From positions 1-47,771 of the IMG/VR virus record IMGVR_UViG_3300046533_000670: a stretch of DNA of 47,771 nucleotides; one strand, given 5' to 3'. The notes under the pieces were generated by a model. It saw only the letters and a list, made by a program, of their open reading frames with translations, was not told where the DNA came from and did not search any database. The DNA is from a virus. The translations under genes were made by a program, and so were the position numbers. How positions within the stretch are numbered: the stretch's first letter is position 1; every line of letters begins with the position of its first letter. Shown piece after piece: positions 8,110-47,129 of the stretch.

Positions 8110-8430
8110 TCACTGGGTTGTCGGGGCGACGTAAGCGCTGACGCCTGGCGAACTCTTCGCCATGCCCCAGACGTGCGAGGTCGTTGAGATATCGAAGCTC
8201 TCGCCGGAGATGATGGTGAAGCCCTCGGTCAACGGGATGGAGGGGCTCGTGTCGCTGATGGCGAAGACGCCGATGCCGTTGAAGGTCAGGAGCATCGGCC
8301 CAGGGCCGAGGTCGGTCCACGCCGTATTGGTCAGGGAGAACTTGGTGGTGACGACGGCGAGCGCCGGCGCGATGATCGCCAGAGCCACAAGGAAGGCCAA
8401 GGACAGGCATTGGAGGATTTTTGGCATCAT
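8110..8430 (-). CDS. Short exported protein, third and truncated member of the paralog family
   Basis: This 106-residue protein has a signal peptide (residues 1 to about 25, ending ALA). The following 80 residues match the N-terminal module of its two larger neighbours: KFSLTNTAWTDLGPGPMLL, then GVFAISD, then SHVWGMA, then AYVAP. It stops where the neighbours enter a variable central domain. It starts by ATGA overlap with the stop of the second copy. It is either a trimmed duplicate or the basic unit from which the others grew. Function is unknown; export to the periplasm is predicted. Confidence 0.75.
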   Translation of the reverse strand: MMPKILQCLSLAFLVALAIIAPALAVVTTKFSLTNTAWTDLGPGPMLLTFNGIGVFAISDTSPSIPLTEGFTIISGESFDISTTSHVWGMAKSSPGVSAYVAPTTQ

Positions 8431-10103
8431 GGCACCCCGACTGAGGTCATGTAGGTTCTGAGGCGATTGTAGAGGGCGAGGTTGCCCGCGCTGCCGAGCG
8501 ACGCGCCGATATGGGCTTCGCTTAAAATTTTCGTTGTGCATGCGGAGGGACTGCCGCCGCAGCCAACAAAGAAAACATTTTCGGGAAGACCTGACGTCCC
8601 GGCTACGGTTCCCTTGTCAATCCCGTTCCAATATCCCTCCAAACTGGCCGAGTTGTTCCGGTCCCCCACAAACAACCCGTTCGTTCCTGGTGATACACAG
8701 CATGGCGGCGTCCCCGGAACATTTATCCTTGGATAAAACGAGCCGCCGTAACTGGCATATATACCGCTGCCTCCACCACCACTCCCCATCTGCCCTACAT
8801 TATCGTCTACGGTAAGGTACGCCCAGACCCCAAGGCTAGCGTTGTTTTGGGTATACAGCAGGCTATTCGTACCGGGATTGTATCCCGATAAATTCAGTAT
8901 GTTTGCTCCCGCGACAAACCCGCTGAACCCTTGATAGGCCGCAAAGGTAAGAGAGCCGCTCACCGCCAAGGGATAGCTCGTCCCCACCAAATTCAGTAAA
9001 CTGTCCGCCTGCGTCTGCTGCGCCAGCACATACAGCGCGTCCAGCTTCGCCCACACGCCATCCGTGACGAGTCCGCATATGAGCGTGGTGAGGTCGGCGG
9101 CATGCGCCGTCTCGCCGGTCGCCCGCGCCAAGTACGCCGTCGCCTGCGAGCAGCCGGTCGCGCCGCCCGCGCCGTCCCATGGGCTGAAGCCTGCTGGCGG
9201 GGCATAGGTCTGGCTGGCGGCAGTGGGGCGGAGGGTCCAGACGCCAGCCCCTGGGCCATGCAGGCAAATTGTCGGAAAATATGCGAGCCCAGCCGCAGGC
9301 GCAGCAATCGCAATCATTGAATTAGCCCCCGTCGCCGGATTACCGCTCCCGAACCAAACATTGTTCAAAGACATCCAAAACTTTCCAGCCGTGAGATCGA
9401 CCGCTATCGCAAACACATCATTTGCGACCGGAATAGTGCCGCTTAATCCGTAATTGTTAGTAAATCCAGGACTTCCTGCAAACAGGCGCTGCTCTGCCTG
9501 TAATAACGCCGCTATTGTAAAAACCCCTGCCGAATAATTACTGGTTCCCAGATAATTGGTAGGGATAAAGCCCGCATCAGCTATCCCAAAACATCCATCG
9601 TTGTTCGTCCCGATTGATCCGTTTGGCGTTATAAATTCGATATAGTACTTTCCGGATGTATGACTGACTGACCCGCGAATGGATTGATAGACCCCGACGA
9701 CCGTGGCCGTCACCGTCAGCCCGCCATTGCTCAGCGTCATGCTGTTGGCGGCGGCGTCGCTCGCGGACCATACGCTCGTCGGCGTCGCCGTCCCGCCACC
9801 GCCAGGCACGATCGGGGCCACAAAGGCGATCCCGCTTGGGGCGTCCTTCATCATCGCCCACACGTGCGAGGCGCTGAAGACAGGCCCTGCCTCCCCTGAG
9901 ACGATGTTGAGGCCCTCGCGCGTGACCGTGGGAGCCGCATCGCCGATGGCGTAGACGCCAATGCCGTTGATCCCCAGCATCAGCGGGCCGGGGCCGAGAT
10001 CCGTCCAAGCGGTGTTGTTCAGACTGAACTTGGTGGTGACGGTCTGAGCGTGCGCCAAGCTCGGGAAGAGCAGGAAAGCGAGGAGGGCGAGCCAGCGGGT
10101 CAT
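8427..10103 (-). CDS. Exported protein with SPRY-like centre and fibre-like C-terminus, copy 2
   Basis: This 558-residue protein has a signal peptide (residues 1-19, ending AHA), the family N-terminal module (about 20-100), and a SPRY/B30.2-like region (about 145-300, with GKYYIEF and DVFAIAVDLTAGKFWMSLN). A conserved helical block follows (CSQATAYLARATGETAH to AQQTQAD), then a variable lectin-like C-terminal domain ending in a block shared with copy 1. The central and C-terminal variable parts are visibly more AT-rich than the conserved blocks, suggesting exchange of modules. Virion proteins normally lack signal peptides, so it probably acts in the host envelope or outside. It overlaps both neighbours by ATGA. 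Confidence 0.8.
   Translation of the reverse strand: MTRWLALLAFLLFPSLAHAQTVTTKFSLNNTAWTDLGPGPLMLGINGIGVYAIGDAAPTVTREGLNIVSGEAGPVFSASHVWAMMKDAPSGIAFVAPIVPGGGGTATPTSVWSASDAAANSMTLSNGGLTVTATVVGVYQSIRGSVSHTSGKYYIEFITPNGSIGTNNDGCFGIADAGFIPTNYLGTSNYSAGVFTIAALLQAEQRLFAGSPGFTNNYGLSGTIPVANDVFAIAVDLTAGKFWMSLNNVWFGSGNPATGANSMIAIAAPAAGLAYFPTICLHGPGAGVWTLRPTAASQTYAPPAGFSPWDGAGGATGCSQATAYLARATGETAHAADLTTLICGLVTDGVWAKLDALYVLAQQTQADSLLNLVGTSYPLAVSGSLTFAAYQGFSGFVAGANILNLSGYNPGTNSLLYTQNNASLGVWAYLTVDDNVGQMGSGGGGSGIYASYGGSFYPRINVPGTPPCCVSPGTNGLFVGDRNNSASLEGYWNGIDKGTVAGTSGLPENVFFVGCGGSPSACTTKILSEAHIGASLGSAGNLALYNRLRTYMTSVGVP
8476..8516. repeat. 41-bp direct repeat shared by the paralog C-termini (copy A)
   Basis: This stretch is identical to 10149-10189. 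It encodes the conserved C-terminal block AHIGASLGSAGNLALY of the two large exported proteins. Identity at DNA level in otherwise diverged genes points to recent duplication or gene conversion. Confidence 0.85.
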
Positions 10104-11767
10104 GGGACGCCTACCGCGGTCATGTAGGCGCGAAGCCTGGTGTAGAGAGCGAGGTTGCCCGCGCTGCCGAGCGACGCGCCGATATGGGCGGCGCTGAGAG
10201 TTTGTGTGGTAACTCCCCCCGACACAATGCTTCCACCAACAAAGAAATCAGCGCTTGAAAGCGCGGTAGGAGTCGATGCAAGCGGCCCCGCGCTGACCCC
10301 GTTCTGATAGGGGTACATATTAGAAGCATCACTTCTCTCTACTGCAAACAATCCCTTAGTAATTGATGTTGCGACTGTAAGGGCCGTGACGCTATCATTG
10401 ACTCTCGGATAAAAAAGCCCGCCAAATTTATTAACTATATACGACGCAGTATTGTAGGCTATTTGCGACTTACCCTCGTCAATAACGCTGTACGACCAGA
10501 CACCTAAGCTAGCATTAGTTTGAGTGTAATGCGGAGTGCCCACCGTTGGGTTAAGCCCAGTGTCCAACCCAACCCCAAACCCAGAAAAACCAACATATGG
10601 CGTAAAAGTTAGAGCGAGCGGAACGGGACGATCAGAAGCTCGGCCCGGCCCCGTCAGCGGGTAGCTTGCGCTTACAAGGTTTAGTTGCGCATCCGCCTGC
10701 GTCTGCTGCGCCAGCACGTAGAGCGCATCGAGCTTGCTCCAGACGCCATCCGCCACCAGCCCGCAGATCAATGTGGTGAGGTCAGCCGGGTGCGCCGTCT
10801 CGCCAGTGGCCCGCGCGAGGTAGGCGGTCGCTTGGCTGCACCCGGCCGCGCCCGCGCCGTCCCATGCGGTGAAGCCTGCTGGGGCGGCGTATTTCTGGCT
10901 GGCGGCGGTGGGCTGGAGGGTCCAGACGCCAGTTCCCGCGCTCTTATTCAGAGACAAAGCAATAAACAGTGAGCCAACCGTAGCGGGACTGAAAGACATA
11001 AAAGGCAGGGATCCTGTAGAGGGGTTGCTGCCACCGGCCCAAACGCCATTCACCGAAATCCACACGCCCCCAGAACCAAAATCTACCGCAAGTCCATAAA
11101 CGTCGTTGGGCGATGGTGTGAGTAAACCTGGATTATAATTAGGCGTAAATCCAGCACTAGTATATACCAGCCCAGCCGGCTGAACGCCGCCGGAATAATT
11201 GCTGGTCCCCGGATAGCTGGCGACATTAAATCCTGAAGATGCTAATCCAATAACCTGAAAATTGGCATTTACAGACGTGACGAGCAATTCAGCGTAAACT
11301 TTACCCGATGACTTACTAACAGTGTTGCGAGCCGACACAAAAGTACTATCCACGGCAGGCGCTGAGAGCGTCAGCCCGCCGTTGGTCAACGTCAGGCCGC
11401 TGGCGGCGGCGTCGGTTGCGGACCAGACCGACGAAGTCCCTCCACCGCCCCCGCCTCCGCCGGTGATTGGCGCGACATAGGCGGTGACGCCGAAATTGCC
11501 GGTTGCCGCGCCCCAGACGTGCGAGGGGGTGGGGATCTTGATCGAGCCGCCGAGAGCCTTGCCGAAGCCCTCGGCCTTGAGGGTCGGGGTCGCGTCCGAG
11601 ATGGCGAACACGCCGGTTGGGCCGTTGAACGACAGTAGCATCGGCCCCGGCCCCAGATCGGTCCAGCCTGCATTGGAAAGGGCGTATTTCGCCGTCGTCG
11701 TCGCCGCGGCCGCCGAGCTTGTCCCTGCAGCGATCAACATCAATGCTATGGCGAGCCAGCGCTTCAT
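10100..11767 (-). CDS. Exported protein with SPRY-like centre and fibre-like C-terminus, copy 1
   Basis: This 555-residue paralog of the next gene has a signal peptide (residues 1-21), the shared N-terminal module, and a Gly linker (ITGGGGGGGG). A SPRY-like domain follows (GKVYAELLVTS, DVYGLAVDFGSGGVWISVN), then the conserved helical block and a variable C-terminal domain with the shared final block. It starts by ATGA overlap with the endolysin stop, so it is made with the lysis cassette. It could alter the host surface, block superinfection or assist release; none of this is shown by the sequence. Confidence 0.8.
   Translation of the reverse strand: MKRWLAIALMLIAAGTSSAAAATTTAKYALSNAGWTDLGPGPMLLSFNGPTGVFAISDATPTLKAEGFGKALGGSIKIPTPSHVWGAATGNFGVTAYVAPITGGGGGGGGTSSVWSATDAAASGLTLTNGGLTLSAPAVDSTFVSARNTVSKSSGKVYAELLVTSVNANFQVIGLASSGFNVASYPGTSNYSGGVQPAGLVYTSAGFTPNYNPGLLTPSPNDVYGLAVDFGSGGVWISVNGVWAGGSNPSTGSLPFMSFSPATVGSLFIALSLNKSAGTGVWTLQPTAASQKYAAPAGFTAWDGAGAAGCSQATAYLARATGETAHPADLTTLICGLVADGVWSKLDALYVLAQQTQADAQLNLVSASYPLTGPGRASDRPVPLALTFTPYVGFSGFGVGLDTGLNPTVGTPHYTQTNASLGVWSYSVIDEGKSQIAYNTASYIVNKFGGLFYPRVNDSVTALTVATSITKGLFAVERSDASNMYPYQNGVSAGPLASTPTALSSADFFVGGSIVSGGVTTQTLSAAHIGASLGSAGNLALYTRLRAYMTAVGVP
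10149..10189. repeat. 41-bp direct repeat (copy B)
   Basis: This stretch is identical to 8476-8516 and lies at the same place in the paralogous gene. Confidence 0.85.
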
Positions 11768-22232: not shown

Positions 22233-22498
22233 TACGCTCTCGCGCGCTTGCGATTCGCACGACCCCAAGCTGATCCTGTCTCGCTTTTTATGCATCCGCA
22301 CGAACGGCTATGTCCGGTGATCAAGTTCCTGGTCGAGACAACCGTCGTCTTGCCGCAGGCGCAGTGACAGAACCAGCGTGTCGCTCCACGCGCGCCTGGC
22401 TCATCGAGTTCCGCCGCGATTAATCGGCCGAACTGAACGCCGCCCAAATGATGGAACGGCCTGCCATTGCGCGCGATGGTGACCGGCCACGCAATCAC
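22232..22498 (-). CDS. Zinc-ribbon protein of the phage HNH/AP2-associated type
   Basis: This 88-residue protein has FGRLIAAELD, then WFCHCACGKTTVV, then LITGHSRSCGC. This resembles a small zinc-binding domain often found alone or fused to HNH or AP2 domains in phages. The cysteines (C-x-C-x-C and C-x-C) are intact. It probably binds DNA. It overlaps the repressor stop by 4 bp and the VRR-NUC start by 1. Confidence 0.65.
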   Translation of the reverse strand: MIAWPVTIARNGRPFHHLGGVQFGRLIAAELDEPGARGATRWFCHCACGKTTVVSTRNLITGHSRSCGCIKSETGSAWGRANRKRARA

Positions 22499-22776
22499 GC
22501 CGCGGTCCTGAACATGTCGAAGGTCGCGTCAGGCCCGAGCAGGTCGATGATCCTCAGCGCCAGCGCCAGCGGCGGGGACGCCTCGCCCAGCTCGTAGCGG
22601 AACACTTGCGAGCGGTTGACGCCGAGGCGGCGCGCGAGCTCGGGGCGGCTGATGCCGCGCGATTCGCGCAGGCGGATCAGTCCGAGTCGGGCGTTAGGGT
22701 GATCGCGGAGGATCTCGCGGTCGGACTTCGGGAGGGGAGTTGGCCAGGACATGAGGGAAAGATGCCCCTGATGCAT
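22495..22776 (-). CDS. XRE-family helix-turn-helix repressor
   Basis: This 93-residue protein has an HTH at about 37-65 (RESRGISRPELARRLGVNRS then QVFRYELGE), typical of Cro/CI-like regulators. It is transcribed away from the ERF operon with a 17-bp dyad between them (22813-22829), the usual arrangement for an autoregulated phage switch. The ATG at 22776 lacks a good ribosome site; an in-frame ATG at 22752 would give 85 residues. It probably binds the dyad, and perhaps its copies elsewhere. Confidence 0.85.
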   Translation of the reverse strand: MHQGHLSLMSWPTPLPKSDREILRDHPNARLGLIRLRESRGISRPELARRLGVNRSQVFRYELGEASPPLALALRIIDLLGPDATFDMFRTAA

Positions 22777-22802
22777 CGTTTTGGCAAGAAGTCACTTCCC
22801 GC

Positions 22803-22829
22803 TTGACAATATGTTGCGACGCGCGCAAC
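22803..22829 (+). promoter_or_regulatory. Early promoter region with operator dyad (site 1 of 4)
   Basis: TTGACA at 22803-22808 fits a -35 box for the plus-strand operon. GTTGCG-N5-CGCAAC at 22813-22829 is a perfect 17-bp dyad placed where a bound repressor would block it. A clear -10 box is not seen at 17 bp spacing. The divergent repressor gene starts 37 bp away. Three related dyads lie upstream of other units. Confidence 0.7.
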
Positions 22830-22853: not shown

Positions 22854-23474
22854 ATGAACGATATCGAAGAGACGCTGCTCAGCGACCGCGCAGGCGCCGC
22901 CGGCAAACTGGCCGAGGCCCTCGCCAAAGCCCAAGGCGAGATCCGCAACCCGGCCCGCGGCTCCGAGAACCCGCACTTCAAGTCGAAATACACCAATCTC
23001 GCCGACGGCATCGCGGCCATTCGCGGGCCATTGTCGAAGCACGGGGTCGCGTGGGTGCAGATCACCCATATCGACGGCGACATCCTGATGCTGACCACCA
23101 GCCTCATCCACGCCGTCTCAGGCCAGACGCTGGACGCGACCTGGCCGGTCGGGGCCTACGCCAAGCTCACCCCGCAGCAGATGGGTTCGGCCCTCACCTA
23201 CGCCAAGCGCTACACCCTGTTCTCGCTGGTCGGCATCGCAGGCGCCGACGAGGACGACGACGGCAACGCAGCGTCCACCGCAAGCCCGCTCATCGACGTC
23301 GACCAGATCGCCTTCGTCGAGCAGCTCGTGCGCGATACCGACTCGAACCTCACCGCCTTCCTGGCGGTTGTCGGGGCGCCCTCGGTCGCCGAGATGACGG
23401 TCGAGCAATTTAAACGCGCGATCAGCATGCTGCAGCAAAAGAAGAACCGCATGTCGGGAGGCGATCGTGGCTGA
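22854..23474 (+). CDS. erf: ERF-family single-strand annealing protein
   Basis: This 206-residue protein shows the ERF signature: GEIRNPARGSENPHFKSKY (about 30-48), LADGIAAIRGPLSKHG, and MGSALTYAKRYTLFSLVGIAG (about 110-130). It anneals complementary single strands during recombination and works with the exonuclease encoded next. The start ATG has AAGGGGG 6 nt upstream. It is the first gene of the rightward operon and so is probably made early under repressor control. Confidence 0.93.
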   Translation: MNDIEETLLSDRAGAAGKLAEALAKAQGEIRNPARGSENPHFKSKYTNLADGIAAIRGPLSKHGVAWVQITHIDGDILMLTTSLIHAVSGQTLDATWPVGAYAKLTPQQMGSALTYAKRYTLFSLVGIAGADEDDDGNAASTASPLIDVDQIAFVEQLVRDTDSNLTAFLAVVGAPSVAEMTVEQFKRAISMLQQKKNRMSGGDRG

Positions 23475-28367: not shown

Positions 28368-28561
28368 GACGCCGCCAGGCCCCGCCCAAGCCCATGCGAC
28401 TGACCTTGGTCCTGATCCAGCACACGGCGGCCGACGGTTGCCTGTGGCCGCTCGCCGAGGACAGGGACGGCCTGCATCTGTTCTGCAACGACAGGCGACT
28501 GCCGCCGTTCGCCTACTGCCAGAGGCACTACCGCCAGAGTTGCGGCAGCAAGCGGGCTTGA
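28364..28561 (+). CDS. Small protein with a GcrA-like Cys/His motif
   Basis: This 65-residue protein has a C-terminal half with GCLWPL, LFC and AYCQRHYRQSC. This resembles the end of GcrA, an alphaproteobacterial cell-cycle regulator, where C-x-WP, FC and YC-x2-H recur. It may bind DNA or RNA polymerase partners. The resemblance is by eye only. It supports an alphaproteobacterial host. Confidence 0.6.
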   Translation: MRRRQAPPKPMRLTLVLIQHTAADGCLWPLAEDRDGLHLFCNDRRLPPFAYCQRHYRQSCGSKRA

Positions 28562-28585
28562 ACCGCAGGGCATGGCGGTCTATAT

Positions 28586-28602
28586 GTTGCTATGAACGCA
28601 AC
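28586..28602 (+). promoter_or_regulatory. Operator dyad (site 2 of 4)
   Basis: GTTGC-N7-GCAAC preceded by TATAT. It matches the 17-bp dyad of 22813-22829 except for one arm base (T for G at position 6). It lies 15 bp before the start at 28618, overlapping the likely promoter or leader of that gene. Confidence 0.6.
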
Positions 28603-28617
28603 GTATAGGAGTACGTC

Positions 28618-28848
28618 ATGTCAGCTAACGTCTACGTTAAGCCGCTCGCAGGCTCCAATAAGGTCGCTTACTTCGTCGGGCATGCGCCCAGCGATCCTGA
28701 TCGCTCGCCAAGCTATCAGCTCGGCGCCTATTTCATCCGCACCGACAGTCTTCACACCGCCCTCTGCATCGCCCGCTCCGAGGCCGATCGTCTGGGTGGC
28801 GAGGTCATCGTTTGTCAGAAGCTCTGTCAGGACGGGTGGGTGTTATGA
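28618..28848 (+). CDS. Small phage protein of unknown function
   Basis: This 76-residue protein has TAGGAG 8 nt upstream of the ATG. A compact alpha/beta pattern (VYVKPLAGSNKVAYFVG, ALCIARSEADRLGGEVIVC) suggests a folded domain. It follows an operator dyad, so it may start a separate accessory unit. Its stop overlaps the next start (ATGA). Confidence 0.75.
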   Translation: MSANVYVKPLAGSNKVAYFVGHAPSDPDRSPSYQLGAYFIRTDSLHTALCIARSEADRLGGEVIVCQKLCQDGWVL

Positions 28849-32954: not shown

Positions 32955-34541
32955 TCACCGGGTTGGAAACAGGCCCTGCAGCAACCGCTGCATGCTGTCG
33001 GCGAAGGGGTTGGTCACTGCCGGATAGCCCATCGATGGGCCGCCAGGCGTCATCGCTAACTCATTGTTGACGTCGCGGCCCGGCAACGTGTTCGGATCAT
33101 TAGGAATTGTCGCGCCCCAGTGGGGAACGAGCGAGGACATCGGCGAGCCTGGACGTTCGGGCGGCGTGACCACCGTGGTTGTGGGTTGAGAACCGAGGTT
33201 CGCGGGACGCGCCGGAGGCTGAGGGGCCTGGTCGAGCGGAGCGCGCTGCGCCAAGTCAGGCCGCGCGGTCTGGACGGCAGGCGCGGGCGCTGCGGGCGTC
33301 CCTGCGCCGGGAGCGAGGTTCATGGCGGTGTACAGGAACGGGTTGCGGCCGCCCTGCCCTCCTCCGCCCGTCGTCATGCCCTGCAGGACCTGATAGCGCG
33401 CATTGGCGTCAGAAGCCCCAGGGAGGGCCGCTGGCTGGCCTGCAGGCGCCTTGGCCGACACTGGCTGCGCCTGAGCCGCAGGCACGTCAGCGGGCGCCGC
33501 TGGGGCTGGGGCTGGGGCTGGGGCTGCCCCCGCAGAGGCCACCGGGGGGTAGCTCTGCCGGGTCGCGACCTGACTCTCGGGAGACGCGCCGGAATAGGCG
33601 CTCCAGACGGCGTTCACGTCCCCGCTCGCCTTGGCGGCCTTGAGCGAGGCCAGGAGTTGGGGGGTCCGCTCGAGCGGGGCCGCAGGCAACTGCCAATGGT
33701 TGAACTCCTTGGCGTTGCCGACGCCGTAAGGATTCGAGAGCCCGTTGGCCTGGGCGATCTGCGCCCACCGCTGGGTCTTGGGGCCGTTGGGGCCGTCAAG
33801 GCCGCGGATGTCGACCGCCAGGCCATAGGAGTGCGAGCTATTGCCGCCAGCGTCATAGGCCGAGGCTGCGCTCGTATCTCCCTTTTCCTTCAATTGCCCC
33901 GGCTCGCGAAACGCCGACTCGAGGCCGACATTGAGGCCTGCGCCCTGCGCCTGCTTGATGGCCGCCGCCAGCCGGGTCGCGAATTGCGGGTTGAGGTTCG
34001 CGGTGTCGCCAGGCCGGTCGGTATGGGCGCTGAGGCTCGAAAGAAAGGCCTTCGAGCCATCGTCCCTTGGGGCAGCCCCTGCCGGCGCGGCCCCTGGCGG
34101 GGGCGCGTGCAGATCGACCGCGCCCGCGGTGTTCGAGGCGTTCAGGGGCAGGGTGTAGAAGATCTGGTTACCGATCTTTCGTCCCTGCTGGCCAACGGCC
34201 CAGTCGGGGACGCGCCCGACAGGCTGCATGCCCTGCGGGGCGTAGAAGTGCGTCGCCCCGCCGGTGTTGTCGGGCGCCCCGGTTGTCGCCATGCGGTCGA
34301 CGATCGCCGCGACCTGCCGATACATCGGATCGTCTTGGCTGACGTTCTTGGGCGCCGCGAACTGTTTGTTCGCCGTCAGAAGTCTCGCTATGCGGCCCGT
34401 CCCCTCGCCGCCCCAGGCGCCGCTGAGGGCGCGGTTGTTGATGACGTTGGCGACTGCGAGCTGGCCCTCCGGCCCCTCGCCCCCGGCCTCGGCCAGGATC
34501 ACCCGGATCATCAAGTCGCGCGACTGCGGCGAGAGGGGCAT
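32955..34541 (-). CDS. Bifunctional peptidoglycan hydrolase: SleB-like plus M15 peptidase
   Basis: This 528-residue protein has an N-terminal SleB-like domain (residues 1-130, VILAEAGGEGPEGQLAVANV with Glu18, and GGATHFY). A Pro/Ala linker leads to an M15-type D,D-peptidase at about 165-290, with SSHSYGLAVDI giving His237 and Asp244, and EFNHWQL giving Glu279 and His282. A long Pro/Ala/Gly tail follows. One half cuts glycan and the other cuts peptide bonds. It is likely ejected to drill the wall. GGGAGG lies 10 nt before the start. Confidence 0.88.
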   Translation of the reverse strand: MPLSPQSRDLMIRVILAEAGGEGPEGQLAVANVINNRALSGAWGGEGTGRIARLLTANKQFAAPKNVSQDDPMYRQVAAIVDRMATTGAPDNTGGATHFYAPQGMQPVGRVPDWAVGQQGRKIGNQIFYTLPLNASNTAGAVDLHAPPPGAAPAGAAPRDDGSKAFLSSLSAHTDRPGDTANLNPQFATRLAAAIKQAQGAGLNVGLESAFREPGQLKEKGDTSAASAYDAGGNSSHSYGLAVDIRGLDGPNGPKTQRWAQIAQANGLSNPYGVGNAKEFNHWQLPAAPLERTPQLLASLKAAKASGDVNAVWSAYSGASPESQVATRQSYPPVASAGAAPAPAPAPAAPADVPAAQAQPVSAKAPAGQPAALPGASDANARYQVLQGMTTGGGGQGGRNPFLYTAMNLAPGAGTPAAPAPAVQTARPDLAQRAPLDQAPQPPARPANLGSQPTTTVVTPPERPGSPMSSLVPHWGATIPNDPNTLPGRDVNNELAMTPGGPSMGYPAVTNPFADSMQRLLQGLFPTR

Positions 34542-34568
34542 TGCCGTCAGGCCTCCCCAGCGCTATAT

Positions 34569-34585
34569 GTTGCGAACGGCGCAAC
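34569..34585 (+). promoter_or_regulatory. Operator dyad (site 3 of 4)
   Basis: A perfect GTTGCG-N5-CGCAAC preceded by TATAT. It lies between the divergent starts at 34541 (minus, hydrolase) and 34626 (plus, membrane microprotein) and could control either or both. Confidence 0.65.
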
Positions 34586-34625
34586 GCACTTAAGCCATGC
34601 CGCAATTTTTTCTGGAGCCTTAGCG

Positions 34626-34757
34626 ATGCGTTTCATAATCGGTCTGTTCTTCGTCCTACTGATCGTTGGAGGAGCCGCATTCAGCTGGCTTGTGGAGGAG
34701 ACTCAACGCCAAAACGCTCAGATCCACGAATGGAATGTCGCCCATCATCAAGGTTGA
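34626..34757 (+). CDS. Membrane microprotein on the opposite strand (moron candidate)
   Basis: This 43-residue protein has one helix (about 3-21, FIIGLFFVLLIVGGAAFSW) and a polar tail (EETQRQNAQIHEW). It is the only plus-strand gene within 18 kb of late minus-strand genes. It has its own operator-like dyad 40 bp upstream and GGAG 10 nt before the ATG. Its end overlaps the next minus gene by 10 bp tail to tail. This is the pattern of a separately regulated accessory gene; a role in superinfection or envelope change is only a guess. Confidence 0.7.
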   Translation: MRFIIGLFFVLLIVGGAAFSWLVEETQRQNAQIHEWNVAHHQG

Positions 34758-40782: not shown

Positions 40783-42200
40783 CTCTGCTCTCCGTCATCG
40801 AACTGGATCACGACATGCCCGAGCCTGGCTCGCGTCGCGTCGGTGGAGCGGAAGCGCAACGAGATATGCGTGCTCTGCTCCGGCATGGTCATGGTGGTCA
40901 TGGCGTAGGTCGGGCCGGTGAACGTCGCGACCGTCTCTTCCGTGTCCGCGTTGGCCGGGTCGCAACCGACTGACATCGTCCACGTCCCCTCGCAGCCCAC
41001 GTCGAAACTATGGAACAACTTGGTCTTGCTCGGGCTCTCGCAACTCAGCGCGGGCGTGATCACCTCGACCTCGGTGTTGTCGTAGGTCGACGCAACCTCG
41101 CTGCCATAGATGTAGACGTGGTTGTCATCGCCGCGGAGGATCACATAGGGATCGGCCACGCACGACTCGACGAACTTGAACGGCGCATCGAAGGTGGACC
41201 AAGCAGTGATGGCCGGCTCCTGAAACGTGCTGAGCACATAGATGCGATCCGGCAGGACGACGAACAGGCGGCCGCTGCGCGGCTGGATCAGGCAGCGGGC
41301 CTGGGAGAACCAGGCGGTTCCGTGCTGGATGATCAGAGCCCGAAATTCCTCGTCGATCGGGGTGCCAAGGTCGGTGGTTCCGGCAGTCAGCGAGATATTC
41401 TGCACCCGCAATGACCGGATACCGTGCGACGACAGGTACATCACGTCGCCGTTGCCGTACTGAGTGGTCGAATTGGCGGCAATCAGCCCGGTTGAGCGCA
41501 AGAGTTGCTGGAACTGGTTTTGCGCCGGGTCAGGATCGAGCTTCCAGAATTGCGTGCTCAGGCTCGAGAAAATGGCCATTTGCGAATAATAAACCTCGAG
41601 CCCAACCAGTTGGGTCGAGTCGGAGTCCTGCGCCGAGAGGTCGATATAGCCCGAGCCGTCGTTGGTTGCGGGCGCGACCGGGGGCGTCCAGATGGTCGGG
41701 TCGCCGATCTTGGAGAACCTCAGCAGCCGGCCGTCGACGCCGTACATCTTCGAGCCATAAGTGCGGATCGCCGAGCTCGTCGCCATCGCGTCAGTGACGC
41801 GAATCTGGTTGTAATAGTGGTAGTAAAGGCCGTTCGCGCCAGCCAGCACGACGTAGAAAAGACCGTTGAACAGGTCCCAGTCCGCAACCCTGGTGATGGT
41901 AATGCCGGCTGGAAACGGCAGCGAGATGATGCCGGGGACGGCGCTCGGCGCTGTCCCGGTCGCCTCGGTGATCCCCGACGCGCCGTTGACCACGGTGTAG
42001 ATCAGCCCATTGCGCGACAGGACCCCGAGACTGCCGCCGGGGAAGGTCCCCCAAGAATAGAAGTTCGTGCGCTTTTCGATCTCCGCGCCCGCCGAGATCA
42101 CGCAATTGCGCATCACCCGGAGCGATCCCGCGGGAGCGGTCACGTATGACTTTCTTAGGTCGAGCCCCGATTTAAAGTCCTGGATGTTGTAGGCGGGCAT
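40779..42200 (-). CDS. Tail nozzle protein (T7 gp12 / P22 gp10-like)
   Basis: This 473-residue protein has a beta-rich N-terminus (YNIQDFKSGLDLRKSY, LRVMRNCVI) and propeller-like repeats (SKMYGVDGRLLRFSKIGDP, GDDNHVYIYGSEVAS), typical of the short-tail nozzle that closes the tail. It follows the adaptor gene by 3 bp. Assignment comes from sequence pattern, size and order. Confidence 0.85.
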   Translation of the reverse strand: MPAYNIQDFKSGLDLRKSYVTAPAGSLRVMRNCVISAGAEIEKRTNFYSWGTFPGGSLGVLSRNGLIYTVVNGASGITEATGTAPSAVPGIISLPFPAGITITRVADWDLFNGLFYVVLAGANGLYYHYYNQIRVTDAMATSSAIRTYGSKMYGVDGRLLRFSKIGDPTIWTPPVAPATNDGSGYIDLSAQDSDSTQLVGLEVYYSQMAIFSSLSTQFWKLDPDPAQNQFQQLLRSTGLIAANSTTQYGNGDVMYLSSHGIRSLRVQNISLTAGTTDLGTPIDEEFRALIIQHGTAWFSQARCLIQPRSGRLFVVLPDRIYVLSTFQEPAITAWSTFDAPFKFVESCVADPYVILRGDDNHVYIYGSEVASTYDNTEVEVITPALSCESPSKTKLFHSFDVGCEGTWTMSVGCDPANADTEETVATFTGPTYAMTTMTMPEQSTHISLRFRSTDATRARLGHVVIQFDDGEQS

Positions 42201-43376: not shown

Positions 43377-44486
43377 TCACTTTATCTCAAGCACAAGGGA
43401 GGAATTGCGCTGAGTCGCGACCATCTGGCCCGTTGACGTGATGCTCTTGTAAAGCACGAACTGGTTCGCTGGCCTGGCCGGCGTATGGTCCTTCCGCCAT
43501 TCGTCGGTCATCTGAACCAGGAAGATCTTCTTCGGATCGAACCAGTAACAGCGCTTCGAGAAGCCGAGGTCATCCAACGTCGGGTCATAGGTGAAGTTGG
43601 TTCCCATGTACGACAGCGCCCCGACCGCGACGTCGCGTGACGACGAGAAGCCGGTCATCGAGTAGTTGCCGTTGGCCCTCACCTCCGTCTCCATCGCGCC
43701 GATGAAGTCCGAGCCGCACAGGGCGATCGTCGGCTTGCCGCCGTAGCGGATGAGCTGGCGGTACTCGGTCTGCAGCACGGTGATCAGCGCGCCGCCGTTG
43801 GCCGGGTTGGTGGTGATCGAGTCTCCACCCCAGGCCGCCAGCGCCGGGGTGCCGCCGACCTTGATGCCGAAGGCGGTGGTGCGCGCCCTGTTCCTCCACC
43901 AGGAGTTGGCCGCCAGCGACTGATCGAGGCCAGCGACCGTGCCGACCGAGGGATCGGCTGAGATCAGGAACTGCATGCCGGCGAGCCCCTTCGGGTCGGC
44001 GGTGCCGTCGCCCCAGAGGAGGCCGTTCATGCCGCGGCTATACTGCTCGCCGAGCTCGAAAAGTTTATCCTGAAACAAATTCACGAGCACCGTCTCGTCG
44101 CGATCGGTGTGCTCGACCGTCTCCTCTCCATTGGTGTCGACCACGGAGATGCCGTCCATTTTCAGTTCGGTATGGGTTAGCGTCAGGCCGAGGTGATGCT
44201 CGCGCCATGGGTAGTTGCCGCGAACGATATTGGCGGGGGTGAAGAACGCGACGGTGTCGTTGTGGGTGTACCCCTTCAGGACATCGTTGCCGCTGCCATC
44301 GCCGAACTTCCCGTGCAGGGCGACTGAGATATTGCCTTTGCCCCCAGGGAATTTCTTCGGGCTCGTTTCGCAGAGCTTGAGGAGAGGTTTGTCTTGCAGG
44401 GTCTGGAAGAACTCTTCCGGCCTTGCCCAGTAGTAGTCCAACGCCGCATTGGCGATATTGGTGATTTCACCAGCCGTGAAGGCCAT
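43377..44486 (-). CDS. Major capsid protein
   Basis: This 369-residue protein is followed by a clear terminator and preceded by the scaffold, the usual order for the main shell protein. Features are an N-terminal arm (AGEITNIANAALDYYWAR), a beta-rich core, and a C-terminus with KIFLVQMTDEWRKDHTP. The HK97-like fold is assumed from the family. GGAG lies 11 nt upstream. Confidence 0.85.
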   Translation of the reverse strand: MAFTAGEITNIANAALDYYWARPEEFFQTLQDKPLLKLCETSPKKFPGGKGNISVALHGKFGDGSGNDVLKGYTHNDTVAFFTPANIVRGNYPWREHHLGLTLTHTELKMDGISVVDTNGEETVEHTDRDETVLVNLFQDKLFELGEQYSRGMNGLLWGDGTADPKGLAGMQFLISADPSVGTVAGLDQSLAANSWWRNRARTTAFGIKVGGTPALAAWGGDSITTNPANGGALITVLQTEYRQLIRYGGKPTIALCGSDFIGAMETEVRANGNYSMTGFSSSRDVAVGALSYMGTNFTYDPTLDDLGFSKRCYWFDPKKIFLVQMTDEWRKDHTPARPANQFVLYKSITSTGQMVATQRNSSLVLEIK

Positions 44487-44515: not shown

Positions 44516-45568
44516 TCAACGCGCTCCACGCTCGATCGCCAGATGGACAGCCTCCTTGAGGCTCCTTGGCTCCGCCCGCGCGCCGTTGACCCGATTGATG
44601 CTGCTCGGGACCTGGTGCGTTGACCGCGGGGCCGGGACGAAGCGGCTAACGACGGCATTCGCTCGCTCATAGGCTTGCCGAGCGATCTCGACAGCCTCTG
44701 CGGGCGAACGCGGCGGACCACGTTCCTGGACGACGGCGTGCAAGAGGTCCCGCACAACGGGCTCTTTGCGCGCATAATCAGGATCGGCTCTTTTGACCTG
44801 CTGTTCCCATTGCGAAACCGCGCCGGCCACCGAGGCTTGGAAGTGTTGCACCTGAGTGGCGTAGTCGCGTTGCGACGACTCCTGTTGGACCCGTTGGAGT
44901 TGGCTCGCAGCCAAAACTTGCGAACCTCTCACCTGGGCCGTGTACCGCGCCGCATCCTGGGTCATATGCCCCATCTGGACCGCCTGGGCCAGATCAGGTG
45001 GCAATTGGATCCCGAGGCTCTCCTGCGCCAGTTTGACGTAGGGGCCGACCCCTTCAAGAAACGTCTTGAAGTCGCCGCGGCGCATGGCCGCGGCCAGGTC
45101 GAGAACGAGCCCAAAATCTTCTTTTGCAATGTCAGATTGCCGCAAGAAATTTTGTAGCTCGGTCGTAGTCTTCGCCGCGTTCTCGAGCGGACCGATGTGG
45201 TCGTTAAGGCGCCGGATCTGCTCTTGGTATTGGCGAATGCGCTTTTGCGTACGGGGTACGTAGGCGTCGTATTCCTGCTGGGTCAGCGGGCCTAGGTCTT
45301 CTCCTGGTTGTGCCGCGCCTGGAGCTGGCGGAGCTCCCCGCAGGTCGCCGGGCGCCGTCTGGCCAGGCTCACCCCGTCGGGGGGCGGCCTCACGGACGAC
45401 GTCCAAGAGCGACTTGCGGCTTTCAGCCGTAGACGGTTCGTGGCCGGAAGTATCGGGCGACGACCCCGGAGATACGTCAGTAGTGGCAGGGGCCTCGGAA
45501 CCGGCCGGCGCCGGGGTCGAGGAGCTGGGGGTTGACTCACCAACACCGGACGACGTGTTGTCTTCCAA
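44516..45568 (-). CDS. Capsid scaffold protein
   Basis: This 350-residue protein has a TTG start with GAGG 7 nt upstream. The first 100 residues are disordered (Ser/Pro/Ala/Gly). The rest is helical and charged (about 105-340, with RTQKRIRQYQEQIRRLNDH), as in internal scaffolds. It sits 29 bp before the capsid gene. It would guide shell assembly and then leave or be cut. Confidence 0.85.
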   Translation of the reverse strand: MEDNTSSGVGESTPSSSTPAPAGSEAPATTDVSPGSSPDTSGHEPSTAESRKSLLDVVREAAPRRGEPGQTAPGDLRGAPPAPGAAQPGEDLGPLTQQEYDAYVPRTQKRIRQYQEQIRRLNDHIGPLENAAKTTTELQNFLRQSDIAKEDFGLVLDLAAAMRRGDFKTFLEGVGPYVKLAQESLGIQLPPDLAQAVQMGHMTQDAARYTAQVRGSQVLAASQLQRVQQESSQRDYATQVQHFQASVAGAVSQWEQQVKRADPDYARKEPVVRDLLHAVVQERGPPRSPAEAVEIARQAYERANAVVSRFVPAPRSTHQVPSSINRVNGARAEPRSLKEAVHLAIERGAR

Positions 45569-45634
45569 GGGGCGTCCTCAAGGGTAGACGCAATCCTTAT
45601 GCTTTCGGGGGGCTTGGGGCAATACCTTCTAGAT

Positions 45635-45651
45635 GTTGCGCGTCTCGCAAC
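45635..45651 (-). promoter_or_regulatory. Operator dyad (site 4 of 4), upstream of the scaffold-capsid operon
   Basis: A perfect GTTGCG-N5-CGCAAC lies in the 89-bp gap between the gene ending at 45658 and the scaffold start at 45568. It matches the dyad beside the repressor gene, which implies that the same protein regulates structural genes here. Confidence 0.65.
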
Positions 45652-45657
45652 GCATTG

Positions 45658-46119
45658 TTAGAACTCTGAATTTTTCCTCCGGAGCTCGTCCAGAGTCATC
45701 TGGCAATCGACCTCGAGGATAGGGACCGGGTCGGTGTCTTCGAGGTCGACCAGCACCACCTCGCGCTCGAGGTCGTCAGTCGAGCCGTAGCCGCTGGCCA
45801 GAAGCTGCTCACGCGCCAGCATCGCGCGATAGTACTCCTGCGCCGAGATCCGCTCATCCCGAAGCTCGGTGGCCACCAGCTGCTTCCAAGCCTCGGCGTC
45901 TTCCTGCCTCTCCTTCTCGAGGCGTTTGCCTTCCTTGGCGAGCCATCGCGCCGCCTCGTCGCAATACGGCCCCCATGCCATTTCCGACAGCGGCGGGGAG
46001 TAGACCTGCTGGCCGGCCTCATTGACGAGGATCATCTGATCGTCGCGGATCGCCTGGATGCGGCACGGCCGCCAGGCGACATTCATGATGCAGTGGCGAT
46101 CGTGCTGCTCGCGTCTCAC
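45658..46119 (-). CDS. Protein of unknown function downstream of the radical SAM gene
   Basis: The product is 153 residues from GTG 46119, overlapping the radical SAM stop (GTGA); an ATG at 46086 would give 142. The first part is small and beta-rich (NVAWRPCRIQAIRDD, ILVNEAGQQVYSPP). A charged helix (WLAKEGKRLEKERQEDAEAW) and an acidic C-terminus follow. It is coupled to the radical SAM gene and may be its partner. Confidence 0.7.
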   Translation of the reverse strand: MRREQHDRHCIMNVAWRPCRIQAIRDDQMILVNEAGQQVYSPPLSEMAWGPYCDEAARWLAKEGKRLEKERQEDAEAWKQLVATELRDERISAQEYYRAMLAREQLLASGYGSTDDLEREVVLVDLEDTDPVPILEVDCQMTLDELRRKNSEF

Positions 46120-47129
46120 GACGCAAACAGATCGGGGCGACCGCGCGTGTCGCGATTGCCGCGGTCGTAATCCTCGAACCGGCAGATGGAGTAGAGCCGG
46201 CGGATGGCGTAGCGCTGGAACTCGCCGAGCGTCCGATGGGCGACGCGCTGGTTGCACCCGCCGAGCGGCAGAAGGCTATTGCGATCGCCGTAGACCATCG
46301 GGTAGGGGCGGATGCGACGCGCCAGCATCTTATCGAACCGATAGAGCACGCGCTCCCATGTCTCGCGCTTGTCGTAGCCGATCAGCATGTAGACGGTGAG
46401 GTGCGACGGTGGGATCCCGTGAGCCTCGAGGGTATCGACGCCTTTGAAGAACCGCCCCTCGTCGCCGATGTTGTCCCAGGCGGTGTAGAGGCGCTTGACC
46501 TTGAAAGAATCGTCCCAGTAGCCCATGCGCTTCAGCGCCGCCGCCGAGACGTCGTCGATCATCCGGGTATTGATGCCCTGGTTGAGGCAGATCTGGAAAC
46601 CGCCGTCGATGATCTCCTGAACCCTGGCTTCCCATTGCTCGCGCGGTTGGCCAAAGAAGTCATTGTCGAGCAGGTGAATGTGCTTCGGGTAGGGGGCGCC
46701 GCGCCAGATGTCGGCGATCGTCGCGACGGTGCGGTTCTTGCCCTCCTTGCGCGGGACGACGCAGAAGCCGCACTTCAGCCGGCACCCGCGTTGCGTGAAG
46801 CCGATCGAGCCATCGAACTTATAGCCGTCGTAGCTGACGCCGTCGTGCTCGCCGATGACGTCCTCGACCGTGAGGTGGGGCGAGCCGATCCCGGTGCCGC
46901 TGATGATGGCGCCGGGGAATTGCGCCTTGAGCTCTTCGATTCGGGCTATTGACTTCGGTTGCTGAAAGATCGCCGAGCCATAGACGCGGTCATAGGCCGG
47001 CTCGAAAGCATCGCGAGCGGTGGACTTGATGAAATGCACCGTGTCCCCCCGCTCGCGATGGTAGTGAGCGAGCCGCATCAGCGCCAGGTTCGGCAGTTTC
47101 CCGTCGAGCTGGGTGATGCGGACATGCAT
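46116..47129 (-). CDS. Radical SAM enzyme
   Basis: This 337-residue protein has C-x3-C-x2-C at 116-123 (RGCRLKCGFCVV) for a 4Fe-4S cluster, in the usual place at the start of the barrel. HIHLLDNDFFGQ and a C-terminal helical part follow. It uses SAM to make radicals and modify an unknown substrate. The N-terminus (RITQLDGKLPNLALM) matches a type I recall from phages and plasmids. It lies 2 bp from the ParB-like gene; a joint role in DNA or nucleotide modification is possible but unproven. Confidence 0.88.
   Translation of the reverse strand: MHVRITQLDGKLPNLALMRLAHYHRERGDTVHFIKSTARDAFEPAYDRVYGSAIFQQPKSIARIEELKAQFPGAIISGTGIGSPHLTVEDVIGEHDGVSYDGYKFDGSIGFTQRGCRLKCGFCVVPRKEGKNRTVATIADIWRGAPYPKHIHLLDNDFFGQPREQWEARVQEIIDGGFQICLNQGINTRMIDDVSAAALKRMGYWDDSFKVKRLYTAWDNIGDEGRFFKGVDTLEAHGIPPSHLTVYMLIGYDKRETWERVLYRFDKMLARRIRPYPMVYGDRNSLLPLGGCNQRVAHRTLGEFQRYAIRRLYSICRFEDYDRGNRDTRGRPDLFAS

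Follow-up and report, generated by a model that had tools for sequence, protein, structure and literature searches.

The recurrence of one short inverted repeat in separated gaps of an uncultured phage genome raises the question as to whether these repeats are the operators of a single phage-encoded regulator and, if so, which genes it would control. The window (the whole stretch of DNA analysed, 47,771 nucleotides) repeats its start in the 127 bp at its end, and the genome unit is therefore 47,644 bp. An earlier note had described four 17-bp dyads, all of which are present where it placed them: GTTGCG-N5-CGCAAC is exact at three, and the one at 28586 has T for G at the innermost arm base. The excess of the dyad, its ranking by a scoring matrix, and its placement both at the repressor junctions of relatives and at other promoters lead us to regard it as most likely a phage operator, with the 93-aa HTH protein encoded at 22495-22776 as the predicted binder.

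An intergenic dyad in excess of chance

With 5-bp arms, the dyad GTTGC-N7-GCAAC is exact four times in the 47,644-bp unit (starts 22813, 28586, 34569, and 45635, here sites 1 to 4), compared with a mean of 0.063 and a maximum of 2 in 300 dinucleotide-preserving shuffles. When up to one mismatch is allowed, as the earlier note had proposed, there are eight matches compared with a shuffled mean of 1.96, and none of 100 shuffles gets to eight, which confirms the excess. The exact dyads are all wholly intergenic and ahead of start codons, again as described, and because only about 8% of 17-mers are wholly non-coding by our gene list, this placement has a chance probability of about 4e-5. Other 5-bp dyads also total four copies in the window, but among those with spacers of 0 to 12 GTTGC-N7 is unique in having four copies entirely between genes; the second-ranked distinct dyad has two.

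A matrix built from eleven sites of other phages and none of the window places the four dyads at ranks 1 to 4 (19.2-21.3 bits), separated by 5.4 bits from the next-best match (13.8 bits), which is inside an ORF. The four additional one-mismatch matches (5837, 5855, 32624, and 40950) are likewise all inside ORFs and score at least 5 bits lower with this matrix. A looser 6+6 pattern with 3 mismatches is not in excess in the window (38 compared with 40.8 expected), and the signal is thus that of four strong sites.

Site 1 and a candidate regulator

Site 1 is positioned in the divergent region between a regulator gene and the early genes:

22495..22776, minus strand: 93-aa HTH_3/XRE protein, candidate regulator (Pfam HTH_3, 4e-10, 40 bits; PHROG transcription regulators)
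22803..22812, plus strand: TTGACAATAT, directly left of site 1
22813..22829, no strand assigned: predicted operator site 1, GTTGCGACGCGCGCAAC, in the divergent HTH/ERF gap
22854..23474, plus strand: ERF single-strand annealing protein, first early gene after site 1 (Pfam ERF, 8.9e-20; PHROG 155)

The 40-bit HTH_3 match of the 93-aa protein compares with a curated cut-off of 23 bits, and the HTH domain alone is matched in Pfam and PHROG, with no S24 autoprotease or C-terminal peptidase domain. The protein has one close homologue in the collections searched, so that co-variation of protein and site is thinly sampled, and its matches among phages and plasmids are only weak. The close homologue (87% identical) led to the nearest relative of the window, G001 (IMGVR_UViG_3300046529_000758), whose identity to the window is about 88-97% across most of the genome that the two share. 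Site 1 is 36 bp from the XRE start codon, a pairing that is kept in G001.

A conserved TTGACAAT adjoins site 1 at the early (ERF) promoter. The combination ACAATNN-dyad is seen again at L067 7169, at each of the two immunity-region sites of G001, and, read on the minus strand, at site 4. This left flank may act as a -10 element (GACAAT), with TTGGCA at 22781-22786 as its partner and a spacer of 18, or may act as a -35 element (TTGACA), which would place the dyad inside the promoter spacer, as at the OR operator of phage BPs.

Relatives carry the dyad at regulator junctions

We found the dyad in several related phages, both at junctions of regulator and early genes and elsewhere, as predicted for a repeated protein-binding site at several promoters; the suggestion that the HTH gene beside site 1 is the natural candidate regulator is likewise supported. 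The proposed search for the dyad at equal places was borne out in G001, where it is present at the site 3 and site 4 positions and twice in the immunity region. There, a segment of about 1 kb separates the HTH gene from ERF, with one dyad on either side: an exact one on the HTH side (2199) and one with an arm mismatch on the ERF side (1188). Ten of ten arm bases are kept on the HTH side and nine of ten on the ERF side, and the inner 7 bp have diverged from the window. We note that this G001 insert (L060 1214-2230) has an operator at each end and that the window has one operator and no insert; the segment looks gained or lost between two dyads.

Equivalents of site 1 are present in L067 and L121. 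Four exact dyads are present in L067, a fragment of a RecT/YqaJ phage: one pair separates a CI-like 200-aa HTH gene from a small gene in divergent orientation, and the other pair is upstream of an internal ATG (about 6026) in an early leftward ORF. The early modules of L079, L121, and L124/G024 are 67-74% identical to that of the window where alignable, and in each of them a small membrane-protein gene has a promoter in which the dyad follows TATAT. Of the two divergent HTH genes in L121, one encodes a homologue of the 93-aa protein and the other has a further dyad across its start codon; such homologues are at the regulator junction of both L121 and G024.

In the sister phage G024 an exact GTTGA-N7-TCAAC, absent from the window, is present at the immunity region/HTH junction, ahead of a gene for a small hydrophobic protein, and at a third location:

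L142 2314-2330; L146 = G024:C1:38002-38018, 42121-42137: GTTGA-N7-TCAAC dyads of sister phage G024

This set fits a shifted operator, but a simple model of that kind does not explain why G024 keeps one GTTGC dyad at another small-membrane-protein promoter.

In more distant ERF relatives the dyad is not in excess, with the exception of G002, an ERF phage with an integrase, in which two identical tandem dyads (GTTGCGAGTTGTGCAAC) are 34 bp apart near three small HTH genes (L062 15680-15730). Among known-phage records there is no close genome, only short ERF/YqaJ and cell-wall-hydrolase matches.

Promoter geometry at sites 2 and 3

Sites 2 and 3 are each preceded by promoter-like hexamers on the plus strand:

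28558..28586, plus strand: promoter-like TTGAAC-N17-TATATG, its last base being the first base of site 2
28586..28602, no strand assigned: predicted operator site 2, GTTGCTATGAACGCAAC (pattern scan)
28618..28848, plus strand: 76-aa ORF of unknown function after site 2, with AGGAG 6 nt before its ATG
34541..34569, plus strand: promoter-like TTGCCG-N17-TATATG, the final G being also the first base of site 3
34569..34585, no strand assigned: predicted operator site 3, GTTGCGAACGGCGCAAC (pattern scan; equal dyad at G001 37656)

The 76-aa ORF has no Pfam or PHROG match. At both sites a TTG hexamer is followed after 17 bp by TATATG, whose final G is the first base of the dyad. The hexamers do not reach the threshold of a strict sigma-70 scan, and the promoter calls thus rest on the recurrence of this geometry: TTG-N20-TATAT leads into the dyad in L079 and at site 3 of G001 as well as at window sites 2 and 3. 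In G001 the arrangement is TTGCGG-N17-TATATG, even though its sequence ahead of the -10 is not related to the window sequence; in L079 TTGAAG is at equal spacing in a match found with a pattern free of any -35 requirement. L121 and L124 came from a search whose pattern included the -35, and are left out as independent cases of the spacing.

With this spacing, transcription at sites 2 and 3 would be expected to start within the dyad itself, an arrangement compatible with repression by steric blocking. We consider it probable, from the arrangement of sites and genes, that a phage-encoded HTH repressor uses GTTGC-N7-GCAAC as its 17-bp operator and controls early and accessory promoters through it. 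Most likely the 93-aa protein would bind the dyad as a dimer, with site 1 covering the divergent repressor/ERF control region, and sites 2 and 3 lying at separate accessory-gene promoters where bound repressor would cover the expected start and block RNA polymerase. One protein could in this way keep early recombination and scattered accessory genes off together, either in lysogens or after early infection. The number and placement of the sites, the promoter-like geometry at sites 2 and 3, and the conservation in relatives are observed; which protein binds, that it represses, and any action of site 4 are predictions. In the window neither an integrase nor a resolvase or ParB was found (PF00589 and PF00239 are absent), and a lysogenic state is thus hypothetical; PF00589 is present in the relatives G002 and G021.

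A possible exchangeable cassette at site 3

Site 3 is within a short block shared with G001:

34564..34620, plus strand: 57-bp cassette of -10, operator, leader, and CTGGAG, 56/57 identical (98%) in G001 by alignment
34626..34757, plus strand: 43-aa microprotein with one hydrophobic segment (sequence, translation)

The DNA on both sides of this block differs between the window and G001, where an unrelated 82-aa hydrophobic protein takes the place of the microprotein. The earlier note had assigned site 3 to the gap between a hydrolase gene and the microprotein gene, which is correct as to position, but the two genes are on opposite strands (microprotein plus, hydrolase minus), and because the conserved block enters the leader of the microprotein and not the hydrolase side, site 3 most likely serves the plus-strand microprotein promoter.

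A second pair, L079 and L124/G024, similarly has near-identical promoter-operator DNA with differing small membrane proteins. Backed by these two pairs, we tentatively suggest that promoter, operator, and leader form an exchangeable cassette: recombination at the short block could swap small accessory genes, mostly for membrane proteins, each capture coming at once under repressor control, and the arms may drift from GTTGC to GTTGA between sister phages along with the regulator. This reading is less likely than not to hold; if it does, it suggests how accessory genes may be captured already under repressor control. The GTTGC/GTTGA pair offers a putative natural specificity shift for testing. 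Separately, three or four small membrane-protein genes are in a row at L079 6723-7380, with an operator-bearing promoter ahead and an integrase adjoining; this row is possibly a lysis or exclusion cassette.

Site 4 upstream of the capsid genes

Site 4 is in a different setting, among leftward genes for the head:

43377..44486, minus strand: major head protein (PHROG 9953, 2.6e-36)
44516..45568, minus strand: 350-aa ORF in scaffold position, starting with TTG here and with ATG in G001, no family match (Pfam, PHROG)
45630..45659, no strand assigned: site 4 flanks, TAGATG left (plus strand) and AACAATGC right (minus strand)
45635..45651, no strand assigned: operator-like site 4, GTTGCGCGTCTCGCAAC, in the intergenic stretch preceding the scaffold-position and capsid genes; also at G001 25627, L072, and L076

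The site is directly after another ORF and 66 bp upstream of the TTG of the 350-aa ORF, which precedes the major head gene. It is flanked by TAGAT on one side and ACAATGC on the other; neither strand offers a matching -35, and nothing resembling a promoter or a terminator was matched here. The control of the capsid operon suggested earlier is thus conjectural. Site 4 could mark a weak promoter, hexamers being unclear at BPs P27 as well; it could also act as a roadblock in the late transcript, or be a remnant. A common relic of the site 3 and site 4 leaders, suggested by a by-eye likeness (dyad, 17-18 nt, AATTTTTYC, GGAG), is not proposed, since a leader pattern search gave site 3 alone within 3 mismatches. 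We also note a radical-SAM-type protein at 46116-47129 (PHROG 9298, 4e-39), among the late leftward genes and upstream of those for the head.

Alternative explanations for the dyad

Several observations count against the repressor reading, among them the thin sampling of protein-site co-variation and the negative result for integrase, resolvase, and ParB given above. In L067 the regulator is another type of HTH protein, its recognition helix differing from that of the 93-aa protein, and yet the arms are equal to those of the window; in G024 a GTTGC dyad persists although the immunity operator reads GTTGA; and site 4 is without a recognisable promoter. The L067 and G024 cases are also what would be expected if the dyad were the binding site of a host transcription factor used by the phage. 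We nonetheless consider this quite unlikely, as the sites adjoin phage regulator genes, and TATATGTTGC-N7-GCAAC (the TATAT-dyad) has 2 matches in 385 alphaproteobacterial genomes, about the chance number, the host class here being presumed from protein relatives. TTGACAA-N3-dyad has 31 matches in genome contigs from many phyla, also about the number expected by chance; these have one dyad per locus, with the exception of a Zoogloea locus with two, and are uninformative for the window phage.

It is unlikely, too, that a different phage protein binds the dyad and that the XRE protein acts elsewhere. Some relatives have two divergent HTH genes and many window ORFs have no family match, but no second HTH protein was recognised among the window proteins scanned, and the 36-bp pairing of site 1 with the XRE start codon, with its conservation in G001, speaks for this gene. 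An RNA role, as hairpins in 5' leaders or as transcription pauses, is very improbable: the dyad folds into a 5-6 bp stem in each plus-strand leader, but shuffled sequences fold as well as the leaders do (z -0.6 to 0.7), for which reason the hairpin reading was rejected. Moreover, the start site at sites 2 and 3 would be inside the dyad, the arms keep one sequence instead of co-varying, and one pair is broken in the dyad at G001 1188. Terminators were likewise rejected, there being no terminator tail 3' of any dyad. An operator bound by the 93-aa protein thus remains the preferred reading.

Comparison with known dispersed operators

One operator sequence is present at four separated intergenic places of the window, and the earlier note had called a single regulator of this reach unusual; dispersed-operator repressors have been published for BPs and P1 (PMC4557955, PMC8546580). 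In mycobacteriophage BPs, the 103-aa repressor gp33-103 has binding regions at five genomic locations, one of them the gap between genes 5 and 6, and it down-regulates PR, P6, P27, and P55; the operator OR is placed between the -35 and -10 of PR, and P27 is without clear hexamers (PMC4557955). As with the candidate repressor and predicted operators of the window, the repressor is small and the operators are in small intergenic gaps, with early and further promoters off in BPs lysogens (PMC4557955). BPs differs in having paired 12-bp half sites, probably tetramer-bound, where the window has a single 17-bp dyad (PMC4557955), and in its integration-dependent immunity; the likeness is one of arrangement, and protein homology is not claimed.

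In P1, one repressor (C1) has 22 dispersed operators of 17 bp (PMC8546580), as predicted here for dispersed 17-bp sites, but the P1 operators are asymmetric (ATTGCTCTAATAAATTT) and the window sites have dyad symmetry (PMC8546580). Mycobacteriophage L5, with its operator and stoperators, also has dispersed repressor sites, some away from promoters (compare site 4), although these are asymmetric and number 18-30 as opposed to four strong sites (PMC4557955). The SAS/ESAS elements of Cluster K mycobacteriophages are repeated inverted-repeat elements near start codons (PMC12699233); compared by description, ESAS are paired imperfect 17-nt repeats near a 13-nt SAS motif, GGGATAGGAGCCC (PMC12699233), whereas the window dyad is tied to -35/-10-like hexamers and regulator genes. 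By analogy, the predicted arrangement resembles that of BPs; dispersed repressor operators are already known, and no new principle is involved. What is gained is a predicted immunity operator for an uncultured phage group with early genes like those of alphaproteobacterial phages, from which immunity groups, repressor-controlled genes, and promoters would be readable from sequence.

Additional observations

Unrelated loci from Ralstonia, Streptomyces, and a gammaproteobacterium (L097 3337-3373, L100 5512, and L117 6668) have in common a nested palindrome, approximately TTGACAAC-N2-GTTGC-N7-GCAAC-N2-GTTGTCAA, which looks like the operator of another regulator family. The adjacent window ORFs 8427-10103 (558 aa) and 10100-11767 (555 aa) match equal stretches of relatives, and are probably tandem paralogues.
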